A stretch of DNA of 64,000 nt from Reyranella sp. (GTDB lineage: Bacteria; Pseudomonadota; Alphaproteobacteria; Reyranellales; Reyranellaceae), in contig JAQSDW010000221.1 in assembly GCA_029946105.1 (NCBI GenBank), forward strand, positions 1 through 64,000. Reading direction: 5' to 3'. This document shows, piece by piece, positions 993 to 7,928 of this stretch (its first letter is position 1; every line of letters begins with the position of its first letter). A program made the position numbers and the translations under genes. The notes under the pieces are model-generated. The model was not told the DNA's origin. It saw only the letters and a list, made by a program, of their open reading frames with translations, and ran no database searches.

Positions 993-1017
993 ATACTTGA
1001 CCAAACTACTCGGGTTT
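993..1017. promoter_or_regulatory. Candidate type-1 IscR box upstream of iscR
   Basis: ATACTTGACCAAACTACTCGGGTTT agrees with the E. coli type-1 IscR consensus ATASYYGACTRWWWYAGTCRRSTAT at about 21 of 25 positions by eye. Confidence 0.65.
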
Positions 1018-1154: not shown

Positions 1155-1631
1155 GTGAAGCTCAGCACCAAAGGACGTTACGCCGTCATGGCGATGGTTG
1201 ATTTGGCCCGTCATGCGCAGGCCAAACCCGTTTCATTGTCGGATATCGCGGCCCGACAGGAAATCTCTTTGTCATATCTGGAACAGCTCTTTGCCCGGCT
1301 GCGGCGTGCCGGCCTGGTGAAGAGCGTGCGTGGTCCGGGCGGCGGCTATCGCCTCGCCCACGGCTCCGCCGAAACCCGGGTGTCGGAGATCATCCTGGCC
1401 GTCGACGAGCCCATCAGCGCCACGCGCTGCACCGAAATGGGGGAGACCGGCTGCCGGGCCGACCGGAGCAAGTGCCTCACCCACGACCTGTGGGAAGAGC
1501 TCGGTAACCAGATCCACGCCTTCCTGAGTTCAGTAACGCTGCTGGACGTCCTGGAGCGGCGGCTCGTGTCGCGCATCACGGAAGCTCCGGCAGCACCGGT
1601 CAAATCGGACTCTATGGCCGCCGCCAGCTAG
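1155..1631 (+). CDS. iscR: Rrf2-family Fe-S cluster regulator IscR
   Basis: MKLSTKGRYAVMAMVDLA..., cluster cysteines CTEMGETGCRADRSKC; GTG start at 1155 preceded by gaggagga; first gene of isc operon. Confidence 0.92.
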   Translation: MKLSTKGRYAVMAMVDLARHAQAKPVSLSDIAARQEISLSYLEQLFARLRRAGLVKSVRGPGGGYRLAHGSAETRVSEIILAVDEPISATRCTEMGETGCRADRSKCLTHDLWEELGNQIHAFLSSVTLLDVLERRLVSRITEAPAAPVKSDSMAAAS

Positions 1632-1644
1632 CAAGGCCCGCTCG

Positions 1645-2766
1645 ATGCCTGCCACCCATACCTATCTGGATCACAATGCCACCAGCCCGCTTCGGCCGGC
1701 GGCGTTCGACGCCATGGTAGGAGCGTTGCAGGCGGGCGGAAATCCATCGTCGGTGCATCGTGCCGGCCGCGGCGCACGGGCGATCGTCGACCATGCGCGT
1801 CGCCAGGTGGCTGCTCTGGTAGGTGCTTTGCCGGCCGAGGTCGTGTTCACGTCGGGCGGCACCGAGGCCAACAACTCGGCTCTCTCCGGTGCGGGCCGCA
1901 GGCGTGTCCTGGTGTCGGCCGTCGAGCACGACAGCGTGTTGAAGGCTGCCAACGGCATGGAAATCGTGCCGGTCCAAGGCAACGGCGTCATCGACCTTGG
2001 CGTTCTGCAAGAGAGCCTGGCGGCATCGCCTGAGCCGGCACTGGTGTCGGTAATGTTCGCCAACAACGAAACCGGCGTGTTGCAGCCGATCGCCGATGTC
2101 GTGCGGGTGGCGCGTGCCACCGGCGCGCTGGTGCATTGCGACGCCGTCCAGGGCGCAGGGAAGGTGTCCGTCGATTTGCACGGCCTCGGCGTCGATTATC
2201 TCAGCCTTTCGGCCCACAAATTTGGTGGCCCGGCCGGAGTGGGCGCACTGATCGTGCGTAGCGGCGCGCCCTTCCTGCCGGACCGTCTCGGAGGCGGGCA
2301 GGAAACCAATCGCCGCGCCGGTACCGAAAATGTGGCAGGCATTGCTGGCTTCGGTGCAGCGGCCGCGGCGGTAGGGAACGGCCTGGCGACCCGCGAATGG
2401 CGCGACCGGTTGGAGGCGCGGCTGCTCGAGATTGCGCCGGCAGCTCGCATCCATGGGGCGTCGGCCGATCGGTTGCCCAACACGACCTGCATTTCCATGC
2501 CGGGTGTCGGGGCGGAGACCCAGGTCATGGCGCTCGACCTGGCTGGTATCTGCGTTTCGGCCGGAGCGGCCTGTTCCTCGGGCAAGGTGACGCGCTCGGC
2601 GGTGCTTCTGGCCATGGGCGTGGAACCTGGCGAAGCCGAGACGGCTCTCAGAATAAGTTTCGGCTGGAACAGCTCTTTCGACGATATTGAACGCTTGATC
2701 GCCGAGTGGCGGGACTTATATATCCGAGTAGGACACTCGGATATAGATCACGCCCGGGCGGCCTAG
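1645..2766 (+). CDS. Cysteine desulfurase, NifS/IscS-like paralogue
   Basis: YLDHNATSPLRPAAFDAM, SLSAHKFGGPAGVGAL PLP lysine, CVSAGAACSSGK active-site loop. Confidence 0.92.
   Translation: MPATHTYLDHNATSPLRPAAFDAMVGALQAGGNPSSVHRAGRGARAIVDHARRQVAALVGALPAEVVFTSGGTEANNSALSGAGRRRVLVSAVEHDSVLKAANGMEIVPVQGNGVIDLGVLQESLAASPEPALVSVMFANNETGVLQPIADVVRVARATGALVHCDAVQGAGKVSVDLHGLGVDYLSLSAHKFGGPAGVGALIVRSGAPFLPDRLGGGQETNRRAGTENVAGIAGFGAAAAAVGNGLATREWRDRLEARLLEIAPAARIHGASADRLPNTTCISMPGVGAETQVMALDLAGICVSAGAACSSGKVTRSAVLLAMGVEPGEAETALRISFGWNSSFDDIERLIAEWRDLYIRVGHSDIDHARAA
2719..2745. promoter_or_regulatory. Candidate internal IscR-type operator (10-bp perfect inverted repeat) ahead of iscS
   Basis: TATATCCGAG-taggaca-CTCGGATATA; about 40 bp before the iscS ATG; about 19/25 positions agree with the type-1 IscR consensus. 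Confidence 0.55.
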
Positions 2767-2784: not shown

Positions 2785-4023
2785 ATGAACGCCATTGCCC
2801 AGATCCGGCGCAACGACCAGCCGATCTACCTCGATTACCAGGCGACGACGCCGATGGACCCGCGCGTCCTGGAAGCGATGATGCCTTACTTCACCTACAA
2901 GTTCGGCAATCCGGGCTCGCGCAGCCATTCCTACGGCTGGGAAGCCGAGGAAGGCGTCGAGAAGGCGCGAGGCCAGGTCGCGAAGCTGATCGGCGCCGAC
3001 GAAAAGGAAGTGATCTTCACGTCAGGCGCCACCGAATCGAACAACCTCGCGATCAAGGGCGTCGCCGAGTTCTACAAGGACCGGCGCAACCACATCGTCA
3101 CCACCGTGACCGAGCACAAGTGCGTCCTCGATACCTGCCGCCATCTCGAACAGCAGGGCTTCGACGTCACCTATCTCCCGGTGCAGCAGAACGGCTTGGT
3201 TGATCTCGAGGTCCTGCGCGCGGCGGTCACCGACAAAACTGTCTTGGTCTCGATCATGGCTGTGAACAATGAGATCGGCGTTATCCAGCCGCTGGCCGAG
3301 ATCGGCAAGATCTGCCGCGAGAAGGGCGCCTTCTTCCATACCGACGCGGCGCAGGCCGCTGGCAAGATCGCGCTCGACGTCGAGGCGATGCACATCGACC
3401 TGATGAGCATCTCGGGTCACAAAATCTACGGGCCCAAGGGCATCGGTGCGCTCTACGTCCGACGCAAGCCGCGGGTGCGGCTGGTCGCCATGATCGTGGG
3501 CGGCGGCCAGGAGCGCGGCTTCCGCTCCGGTACGCTGCCGACGCCGCTCTGCGTTGGTCTCGGCGAAGCGGCCGAGATCTGCCTGAAGGAAATGGATGGC
3601 GAGGCCAAGCGTCTCACCAAGCTGCGCGATCGCATGCTGAAGGGGCTGAACGCCAAGCTGCCGGAGATCTACGTCAACGGCGATCTGGACCAACGCATTC
3701 CCGGCAATCTCAACATCAGCTTTGCCCACGTCGAGGGCGAGTCGCTGATGATGGGGATCAAGGGCCTGTCGGTGTCGTCCGGCTCGGCTTGCACCTCGGC
3801 CTCGCTGGAGCCCAGCTACGTGCTGCGCGCCCTCGGCGTCGAGGAGGAAATGGCGCATACATCGCTGCGTATCGGGCTCGGCCGCTTCACGACCGAGCAT
3901 GAAGTCGATACGGCCGTCGAGGAACTGGCGCACCACGTCACCAAGCTGCGCGAAATGAGCCCGCTCTGGGAAATGTCCCAGGAGGGAATCGATATCAAGT
4001 CCATCGAATGGGCCGCCCACTAA
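2785..4023 (+). CDS. iscS: Cysteine desulfurase IscS
   Basis: [62 protein letters not shown]; followed by iscU. Confidence 0.96.
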
Positions 4024-4074
4024 ACTTCCCACTGGGCCCATCGAGGATTTGAAGGAAGATTTGAGGAGAGTGTC

Positions 4075-4485
4075 ATGGCCTACAGCGAAAAGCTTCTCGA
4101 CCACTACGAGAACCCCCGCAACATCGGCTCGCTCGACAAGAATGCCGAGGATGTCGGCACCGGTCTGGTCGGCGCCCCGGCCTGTGGCGACGTCATGAAG
4201 CTGCAGATCAGGGTCGGCGCCGATGGGCTGATCGAGGACGCCAAGTTCAAGACCTTCGGCTGCGGCTCGGCGATCGCTTCGAGCTCGCTGGTCACCGAGT
4301 GGGTCAAGGGCAAGACGATCGACGAGGCCGAGACGATCAAGAACACCGACATCGCGCGCCACCTGGCGCTGCCGCCGGTGAAGATCCATTGCTCGGTGCT
4401 GGCCGAGGACGCGATCAAGGCGGCGATCGCCGACTATCGCGCCAAGGCGTCGAAGAAGGACGAAACCCAGGAAGCCGCCGAGTAG
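4075..4485 (+). CDS. iscU: Fe-S cluster scaffold IscU
   Basis: MAYSEKLLDHYENPRNIGSLD, VGAPACGDVMKLQI, KTFGCGSAIASSSL, LPPVKIHCSVLAEDAIKAAI. Confidence 0.97.
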   Translation: MAYSEKLLDHYENPRNIGSLDKNAEDVGTGLVGAPACGDVMKLQIRVGADGLIEDAKFKTFGCGSAIASSSLVTEWVKGKTIDEAETIKNTDIARHLALPPVKIHCSVLAEDAIKAAIADYRAKASKKDETQEAAE

Positions 4486-4515
4486 GCAGCCGAGTAGATT
4501 TCGGAGCAGAGCGTC

Positions 4516-4935
4516 ATGAGCACGACCACCGAGACGTCCCAACCCGCCGCCGTGGCGACACCGGCTGCCGCACCCGCCGCTACGCCGCGCGTTCGCCGGC
4601 CGCGACCGCAGGTGATGTCGGTGACGCCGGCCGCAGCCGAGCGCGTCAAGGCGCTGATCGATGGCCGCGAAAAGGCGACGGTCGGCATCCGCATCGGCGT
4701 GCGCAGCAAAGGCTGCTCGGGCATGAGCTACACGCTCGAATTCGCCGAGGCCCAGCAGCCGATGGACGAGGTCGTGGAAACGGCCGGCGTGAAACTCCTG
4801 ATCGATCCCAAGGCGTCGCTGTTCCTCATCGGCACGCAGATGGACTATGTCGAGGAGAAGCTGAAGTCGGGTTTCGTGTTCAACAATCCGAACGAGAAGG
4901 GCCGCTGCGGCTGCGGCGAATCCTTCCACGTCTGA
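4516..4935 (+). CDS. iscA: HesB/IscA-type Fe-S assembly protein with Ala/Pro-rich N-terminal extension
   Basis: VRSKGCSGMSYTLEFA ... GRCGCGESFHV cysteine motifs. Confidence 0.94.
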   Translation: MSTTTETSQPAAVATPAAAPAATPRVRRPRPQVMSVTPAAAERVKALIDGREKATVGIRIGVRSKGCSGMSYTLEFAEAQQPMDEVVETAGVKLLIDPKASLFLIGTQMDYVEEKLKSGFVFNNPNEKGRCGCGESFHV

Positions 4936-4944
4936 AGAACTGTC

Positions 4945-5457
4945 ATGGATCATTTCGCGCGGCTGGGATTGCCGGCGGCGCTCGAACTGGATGGTGCCGC
5001 TCTCGACCGGGCCTATTTTGCCGCTCAGCGCCAATGGCATCCCGACCGTTTCGTTGGCAAGCCGCCAGAAGATCGGGCGCGCGCTTCGACCGAAGCGGCC
5101 GGCCTCAACGATGCCTATCGCACCCTGAAGGATCCGCTGTCGCGCGCCGTCTATCTTGCCGGCCTGAACGGCATCGATCTGCCGGGCGATGGCAAGACCA
5201 TCGATGATCCCGACCTCCTCATGGAGGCGATGGAGACCCGGGAAGAACTGCACGAGGCGGCAACGGCTGACGCGGTCGATGTGTTGGCGGCACGTTCCCG
5301 CGACGAGATGACCAAGGCCCTGGCGGGGCTCGGTACTTTGTTCTTGCGCCACGACAAGGCCGCTATCAGAAAGGCGCTCCTTCGCCTGCGCTACCTCGAC
5401 AAGTTTGCCGAGGAGGCGCGTGCCAGGCGCACGAATCTTCACCGAGAGAAGGCATGA
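4945..5457 (+). CDS. hscB: Fe-S co-chaperone HscB (J-domain)
   Basis: MDHFARLGLPAALELD...QRQWHPDRF (HPD) and position between iscA and hscA. Confidence 0.93.
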   Translation: MDHFARLGLPAALELDGAALDRAYFAAQRQWHPDRFVGKPPEDRARASTEAAGLNDAYRTLKDPLSRAVYLAGLNGIDLPGDGKTIDDPDLLMEAMETREELHEAATADAVDVLAARSRDEMTKALAGLGTLFLRHDKAAIRKALLRLRYLDKFAEEARARRTNLHREKA

Positions 5458-7349
5458 GTCTGCTGGAGATCCACGAGCCGGGCGAAACGCCGTTGCCGCA
5501 TGCTGGCGAGGCCTCGCTGGCGGTCGGCATCGATCTCGGCACGACCAATTCGGTGGTGGCGATCGCGCGTGAGGGCGTGCCGGCCGCGCTGCACGACGAC
5601 AGCGGCAAATCGCTGGTGCCCTCGATCGTGGCATATCCTGACGCCGGAGGCGTTCTGGTGGGTGAGGAGGCGCGTCTCCTGATGGCGCGCGAGCCGCGCA
5701 ATACAGTGGCCTCGATCAAGCGTCTGATGGGACGCGGCGCCGCCGATCTTCATGCCGTGGCGGGCGTTCTTCCCTACGAGATCGAGCCGGGCAGCGGCCA
5801 GACCGACATGGTGAAACTGCGGATCGGCGGCAAGGCGCGTTCGCCGGTCGAGATCTCGGCCGAAATCCTGAAGGCGTTGCGGGCGCGGGCGGAAGCGGCG
5901 TTGGACAAGCCGATCGAGCGCGCCGTCATCACGGTGCCGGCCTATTTCGACGATGCCGCCCGCACTGCCACGCGCGATGCCGCGCGCGTGGCAGGCCTCG
6001 AAGTGCTGCGGCTGGTCAACGAACCAACCGCGGCCGCGCTGGCGTACGGCCTCGACAAGGGATCGGAGGGCCTCTACGCGGTCTACGACTTGGGCGGCGG
6101 CACCTTCGACTTCTCCCTGCTGCGGCTGGAGAAGGGCGTGTTCCAGGTGCTGGCGACCGGCGGCGATGCAGCCCTTGGCGGCGACGATTTCGACCGCGCC
6201 ATCGCCGAGCGCATGCTGGCGGAGCGCAAGAAGGATGGTGTCGCCGATCAAGTGGACGAAGCGGCAGTGAAGACCGTGCTGGCACTTGCCCGGCAGATCA
6301 AGGAACAGCTCTCGGGACGCGACCAAGCATCGGGACGCCTCGAGCTCGCGGGCATTCCCTCGTTCCATGCATTGGGTCGCGCCGACTTCGAGGCGATGAT
6401 CGCCAAGGATATTTCACGCACCCTCGACATCGCCGGCAACGTGCTGGCCGATGCCGGGATGACGGCGTCCGACGTGCAGGGCGTGGTGCTGGTCGGCGGC
6501 TCGACCCGTCTGCCGCTGGTGCGGTCGGCAGTGGCCGGCATGATCGGCAAGCCGGCGCTGACGGACATCGACCCGGACGAGGTGGTGGCGCTGGGCGCGG
6601 CACTGCAGGCCGAGGCACTGACCGGCGGCGGCGATACGCTGCTGCTCGACATCACGCCGCTATCGCTCGGTCTCGAGACCATGGGCGGCATCGTCGAGAA
6701 GGTCGTGCCGCGCAACACGCCGATCCCGGTGCAGCTCGCGCAGGAATTCACCACCTACCATGACGGCCAGACCGCCATGGCGATCCATGTCGTGCAGGGT
6801 GAGCGCGAGATGGTGGCCGACTGCCGCAGCCTCGCGCGCTTCGAGCTGTCCGGCATCCCGCCAATGACGGCAGGCGCCGCACGCATTCGTGTCTCCTTCG
6901 CCGTCGATGCCGACGGTCTGCTCGCGGTCTCGGCCGAGGAACGCACGACCGGTGTGGCGCAGCGCATCGAGGTCAAGCCGTCCTATGGGCTCAGCCACGA
7001 CGACATGGCCGACATGCTCTATGACAGCCTGGATAATGCCGAGGCCGACGTGACGCAGCGCTTGCTGGTCGAGGCGCGCGTTGAAGCCAGGCGAAATCTT
7101 CTGGCGCTGGAGGCAGCACTCGCCAAGGACGGCAGCCTACTTGGCGCCGACGAGCGGGTGGCCCTCGATGCCGCACGTGCGCACCTCGAGGCCGCCATCG
7201 CCGGCGAGGATCGCGACGCTATCAATGCCGCCGCCGAGGCGCTGGAAAATCTGTCCAAGCCCTTCGCCGAGCGGCGTATGGACCGCGGCATCCGCGAGGC
7301 GCTGGCGGGTCTGTCGGTCGGCGAGCTGGAAAGCAGGGTCGGCGAGTAG
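5454..7349 (+). CDS. hscA: Fe-S protein assembly chaperone HscA (Hsp70)
   Basis: [46 protein letters not shown]; overlaps hscB by 4 bp. Confidence 0.95.
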
Positions 7350-7361
7350 CTGGAGCAATCG

Positions 7362-7697
7362 ATGCCGAAATTGACGTTCATCCTCAAAGACGGATCGCGC
7401 AAGGAAGTCGATGCGCCGCTCGGTCTGTCGGTGCTGGAAATCGCCCACCGCAATCACATCGACATCGAGGGCGCCTGCGAAGGCTCGCTCGCCTGCTCGA
7501 CCTGCCATGTGGTCGTCGAGAAGGAATGGTTCGACAAGCTCGCGCCAGCCAGCGAGGACGAGGAGGACATGCTCGATCTCGCCTTCGGCCTCACCCACAC
7601 CTCGCGCCTGGGCTGTCAGATCCTGATGAGCGAAGCGCTCGACGGGCTGGTGGTGCGCCTGCCGGCGGCGACCCGCAACATGATGGTCGACAAGTAG
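7362..7697 (+). CDS. fdx: ISC-type 2Fe-2S ferredoxin
   Basis: [24 protein letters not shown]...[16 protein letters not shown]. Confidence 0.95.
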
Positions 7698-7721
7698 GAG
7701 AGGCCACAAATAGGAGAGCTA

Positions 7722-7928
7722 ATGGCACTCAAGCTGCGCTGGACCGACGTTCACGATATCGCGATAAAGCTCGAGGAACGCCACCCCGACATCGACAACG
7801 TCAACTTGCGGTTTACCGACCTGCATCGCTGGGTGATGGAATTGCCTGGTTTTGACGACGATCCCAAGCGCTCCAACGAGAAGATCCTGGAAGCCATCCA
7901 GGCCGCCTGGATCGAGGAACGCGACTAG
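7722..7928 (+). CDS. iscX: Fe-S cluster assembly protein IscX
   Basis: LKLRWTDVHDIAIKLEERHPDIDNVNLRFTDLHRWVMELPGFDDDPKRSNEKILEAIQAAWIEE. Confidence 0.95.
   Translation: MALKLRWTDVHDIAIKLEERHPDIDNVNLRFTDLHRWVMELPGFDDDPKRSNEKILEAIQAAWIEERD

Follow-up and report, generated by a model that had tools for sequence, protein, structure and literature searches.

In the isc locus of Reyranella sp., a perfect palindrome lies within the last codons of the first of two tandem cysteine desulfurase genes, just upstream of iscS, which raises the question of whether this stretch of coding sequence also serves as an operator for IscR and, if so, what an operator would do at such a place. The window considered here is the whole stretch of DNA analysed, 64,000 nucleotides in length. 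The main features of the locus, with hscA assigned by sequence and position, are the following.

993..1017, no strand: first of two predicted IscR boxes in the iscR promoter (box 1), ATACTTGACC-AAACT-ACTCGGGTTT, holding a TTGACC -35-like hexamer and near-identical to IscR site B of P. aeruginosa (PMC6599224)
1021..1045, no strand: second predicted IscR box in the iscR promoter (box 2), spaced 28 bp from box 1, its left arm degenerate in the window
1155..1631, + strand: iscR, with the recognition helix SLSYLEQLF, the R59-equivalent and the Cys3His cluster ligands kept
1645..2766, + strand: first cysteine desulfurase (NifS/IscS-like), with the internal box in its last codons
2695..2724, + strand: putative internal promoter, with a -35-like TTGATC (2695-2700) and a -10-like TATATA (2717-2722, 16-nt spacer) or TATATC (2719-2724, 18-nt spacer)
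2720..2744, no strand: internal Type-1-like IscR box, ATATCCGAGT-AGGAC-ACTCGGATAT, within the perfect dyad 2719-2745, in 36/36 congeners and 46/46 named records
2785..7928, + strand: iscS, iscU, iscA, hscB, hscA, fdx and iscX, the genes that the putative internal promoter would serve

The palindrome was located exactly in the window as TATATCCGAG-TAGGACA-CTCGGATATA at 2719-2745, in frame within the 3'-terminal part of the desulfurase ORF (1645-2766; ...RDLYIRVGHSDID...). A previous reading of this DNA, made from the sequence alone, had given the same position together with arms of 10 bp and a 7-nt spacer; the position holds, but the maximal perfect arms comprise 11 bp around a 5-nt centre (TATATCCGAGT-AGGAC-ACTCGGATATA). 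The distance to the iscS start codon, previously put at about 40 bp, amounts to 39 nt between 2745 and the ATG at 2785. Trimming of one base pair per end leaves a 25-bp dyad (2720-2744) arranged 10-5-10 like an IscR Type-1 box. This dyad agrees with the E. coli Type-1 consensus in 19/25 positions, as that reading had estimated, the corresponding value for the 993 site being 21/25; these two sites are the top matches to the E. coli consensus within the 64-kb window. The full palindrome found no match in 100 shuffles, and the only site of the 5.6-Mb genome at three mismatches or fewer from ATATCCGAGTnnnnnASTCGGATAT is the palindrome at 2719-2745.

The element occupies identical desulfurase codons in each of 36 congeneric genomes, a set to which the window belongs, and in 46/46 named records of the Reyranella clade, two sets which overlap in organisms and whose counts are not additive; the same locus occurs in Reyranella soli, R. 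aquatilis and Enhydrobacter aerosaccus ATCC 27094. According to the codon alignment, both the highest synonymous conservation and the highest use of rare codons of the gene are found at the element. The codon CGA at 2725 is present in 36/36 genomes (no other Arg column exceeds 4/36), CTA at 2716 in 32/36 (at most 1 elsewhere) and TTG at 2695 in 36/36 (at most 18 in other Leu columns), counts which take related genomes as separate and describe conservation rather than probabilities. A palindrome more conserved than its codons demand was the test proposed by the sequence-only reading, and the fixed rare CTA, CGA and TTG together with the maximal synonymous conservation answer it clearly. The locus offers in this respect a clean example of a putative regulatory site preserved genus-wide in coding sequence, whose constraint is legible in the codons.

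From an element thus established, conserved in the whole genus beyond coding need and built on the same motif as the iscR promoter, we infer IscR binding, promoter activity and the direction of control. The palindrome is rather likely a Type-1 IscR operator placed over the -10 region and start of a sigma-70-type internal promoter, located within the final 70 bp of the gene for the first desulfurase, with holo-IscR acting as a repressor of both promoters. When Fe-S clusters are plentiful, [2Fe-2S]-IscR would occupy the internal box and the two boxes upstream of iscR, and both promoters would be repressed; when clusters are scarce, both would open, and the internal promoter would deliver an extra iscS-iscU-iscA-hscB-hscA-fdx-iscX transcript on top of the read-through from iscR. 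The previous suggestion that this arrangement uncouples the two desulfurases is doubtful, since both promoters carry boxes for one regulator, and what is to be expected from such a layout is an additional dose of iscSUA-hscBA-fdx under common regulation, or a roadblock, rather than separate signalling. By itself, the common regulator leaves the need for a second promoter unexplained. For operons that carry two desulfurases in tandem, the arrangement suggests a rebalancing of the parts through an internal feedback-controlled promoter.

With respect to the promoter, the pattern TTGAT[CT]-18-TAT[AG][TCA]C occurs in 36/36 genomes and 46/46 named records, the two Ala codons between the TTG and TATAT hexamers vary freely while the hexamer positions are invariant, and the -10-like hexamer overlaps the left arm of the internal box. 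This conserved -35/-10-like pair overlapping the box supports the internal promoter proposed earlier, but the hexamers share 8/12 bases with the consensus and the promoter scan made no call there. Part of the constancy of TTG and CTATAT could reflect codon choice, because these codons stand among conserved residues. The promoters of Rhodobacter sphaeroides are reported (PMC6956336) to have little in common beyond TTG around -35 and an A around -10. Judged on these sequence features, an internal promoter at the box is likely. Its main rival is a roadblock, in which IscR bound to the box would halt RNA polymerase coming from the iscR promoter and would repress the distal genes more than iscR and the first desulfurase, with no internal promoter at all. 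The strength and symmetry of the box and the weakness of the hexamers by consensus speak for such a roadblock, which leaves unexplained both the TTG codon that every genome keeps 16-18 nt ahead of TATAT and the Rhodobacter precedent with its mapped start (PMC6956336), and which we hold to be unlikely. Between the desulfurase gene and the ATG of iscS, the leader 2767-2784 (TTTCAAGGGGTTAGC) is almost invariant in the genus and has TTTTCAAG..TTAG in common with the iscR leader; this stretch may be a ribosome-binding site alone.

The assignment of the motif to IscR starts from the boxes of the iscR promoter, among which the second, at 1021, was absent from the sequence-only reading. In its genus form the 993 box reads ATACTTGACCnnnnnACTCGGRTTT, and the 1021 box reads AAAYCCGAGYnnnnnAGTYGGTTTT in many congeners. 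A symmetric half-site matrix trained on these two boxes only (993-1017 and 1021-1045) gave the internal site 21-28 bits and a rank of 1-3 in 36/36 loci, the best unrelated site remaining below 8. The internal site combines a 25-bp dyad, AT-rich ends and arms of the YYGAC/AGTCRR type in a 10-5-10 arrangement, and the IscR encoded by the genome has the recognition residues and cluster ligands to match: the alignment and the comparison across the genus give recognition helix, wing and cluster ligands as in E. coli IscR, and the best PDB matches of the window protein are the E. coli IscR entries 4hf0/4hf1/4hf2/4chu. The operator reading proposed from the sequence is borne out by this Type-1 geometry, by the consensus match and by the motif shared with the iscR promoter, and a usable IscR motif for Reyranella has been obtained. 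An operator for a different regulator sharing the iscR promoter, either another Rrf2 protein or an iron regulator, would agree with the GAGT/ACTC arms found instead of GACT/AGTC and with an IscR binding that is only predicted for this box; in view of the geometry and the 19/25 match, of the GAGT/ACTC arms that also occur in IscR sites of P. aeruginosa (PMC6599224), and of the boxes present both in the iscR promoter and before rpoH, this identity appears quite improbable. Downstream of the iscR promoter boxes, the iscR leader (1067-1130) holds a stretch, GGAATATCKTAGYAAYGCCTTGGTTTTCAAGACCTTTAGGCRTT, that hardly varies across the genus. It can fold into a stem, AAYGCCT/AGGCRTT, in which one pair has changed on both sides (T-A to C-G); a search of this stretch against Rfam gave no match, and a 5'-UTR structure or another operator is possible.

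When the own genome and ten congeners were scanned for the pattern, one further conserved target emerged, the boxes upstream of rpoH. The motif stands ahead of rpoH, single or in tandem, in 8/8 congeners inspected, and in the two loci that were read closely the boxes follow rluD. At one of these (L163 2452-2516, C141:11951-12015 of the own genome), tandem IscR-like boxes 40 bp apart lie between rluD and rpoH, with a TTGACC between them; seven further congeners have one or two boxes before rpoH. Since binding of IscR to the rpoH region has been confirmed in Caulobacter (PMC11475020), the rpoH boxes provide independent support for the motif as an IscR box, and rpoH is predicted to be an IscR target in Reyranella, with a cross-talk between Fe-S and heat-shock responses like that of Caulobacter. 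Other sites of the own genome that deviate by two mismatches, C1:1756 and C102:17995 among them, seem to be chance matches; C1:1756 and C102:17995 score far lower, and C1:1756 lies in addition inside an unrelated ORF. In one congener, a strong single box, ATATCCGACTATTTGACTCAGTTAT, occurs at L171 2471-2495 (G011:C6:130770) upstream of an ORF resembling a helix-turn-helix regulator; neither this strong single site nor that of G031:C1 was recovered in the other genomes searched.

Inverted repeats can also act in the transcript, and a hairpin of the mRNA involved in processing, attenuation or translational coupling to iscS would account for the 11-bp stem which the arms form in the window, with a fold z-score of -2.1. 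Against this reading, one stem pair places G opposite G in 20/36 genomes and another C opposite A in 6, compensation on both sides occurs in 2 cells only across the 36 genomes, and the boxes of the iscR promoter show the same G/C freedom, as expected of a protein site. The Rfam search of the internal inverted repeat gave no match, and with pairing not kept and hardly any covariation the hairpin was rejected as highly improbable. A terminator at the palindrome was likewise discarded, the site being devoid of a T-run and none being called there by the scan. Chance, or maintenance solely for the C-terminal peptide, is hardly credible: the residues LYIRV..SDI are themselves conserved within the genus and YIRT-like residues occur in one outgroup (L039), but the synonymous positions are locked to codons rare elsewhere in the gene and shuffles yield no comparable site, and it is this codon-level conservation that refutes the idea.

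The Type-1 operator reading, with its internal promoter, can be compared with three known systems. The E. coli IscR Type-1 sites, quoted as ATASYYGACTRWWWYAGTCRRSTAT in PMC6599224, share with the Reyranella box the 25-bp dyad, the AT ends and the 10-5-10 layout; the latter differs by having GAGT/ACTC, on one arm or on both, where the E. coli sites have GACT/AGTC, by a centre that is not A/T-rich and by its location inside coding sequence. In P. aeruginosa, the isc promoter contains tandem Type-1 sites A and B upstream of iscR, site B being ATAGTTGACCTAATTACTCGGATAA, which is bound by IscR (PMC6599224). Site B has a left arm nearly identical to that of the 993 box and a right arm nearly identical to the internal arm ACTCGGATAT, the half-sites of the internal box being equal or nearly equal to IscR-bound P. 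aeruginosa sites (PMC6599224). The P. aeruginosa boxes are spaced by 25 bp as opposed to 28 bp in Reyranella, and none of the P. aeruginosa isc sites is of the internal type. The closest functional precedent is promoter P3 of the isc-suf operon of Rhodobacter sphaeroides, located inside iscS, whose box GACTATTTCTGTCGG resembles the IscR consensus and was bound by IscR in gel shift (PMC6956336). P3 and the putative Reyranella promoter are alike in lying within a desulfurase gene of an Fe-S operon, at an IscR-like box and ahead of assembly genes, which P3 drives and the Reyranella promoter would drive, and the TTG near -34 of P3 recurs in the -35-like hexamer of Reyranella. In contrast, P3 drives suf genes where the Reyranella promoter would drive iscSUA-hscBA-fdx, and P3 possesses an Irr site as well and a less symmetric box.

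In several other Alphaproteobacteria, iscR is preceded, directly or at a greater distance, by a box of the kind ATACTTGACTnnnnnAGTCRG, and in several of these genomes the desulfurase is followed by a SufB-like protein, named by eye from sequence; on account of this neighbour, the first desulfurase is probably the ortholog of the IscS of isc-suf operons. Among the other alphaproteobacterial families examined, the 3' end of the orthologous desulfurase gene has no box, for which reason an ancestral alphaproteobacterial element was rejected. Since these families lack a box at the Reyranella position, the element has a precedent in P3 but was probably gained separately. We give about even chances to the fuller scenario in which the operator was gained at the base of Reyranella, inside codons, and provided an IscR-regulated ISC promoter of its own that doses the scaffold/chaperone part apart from IscR and the first desulfurase, a like layout having arisen independently in Rhodobacteraceae. 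Taken with the Rhodobacter case, the element points to internal IscR control having evolved more than once in the Fe-S operons of Alphaproteobacteria. In Zavarzinia aquatilis, a pair of IscR-like boxes (L128 96-148), spaced by 28 bp like those of the iscR promoter in Reyranella, lies about 900 bp upstream of iscR and, owing to this distance, probably heads a longer operon.
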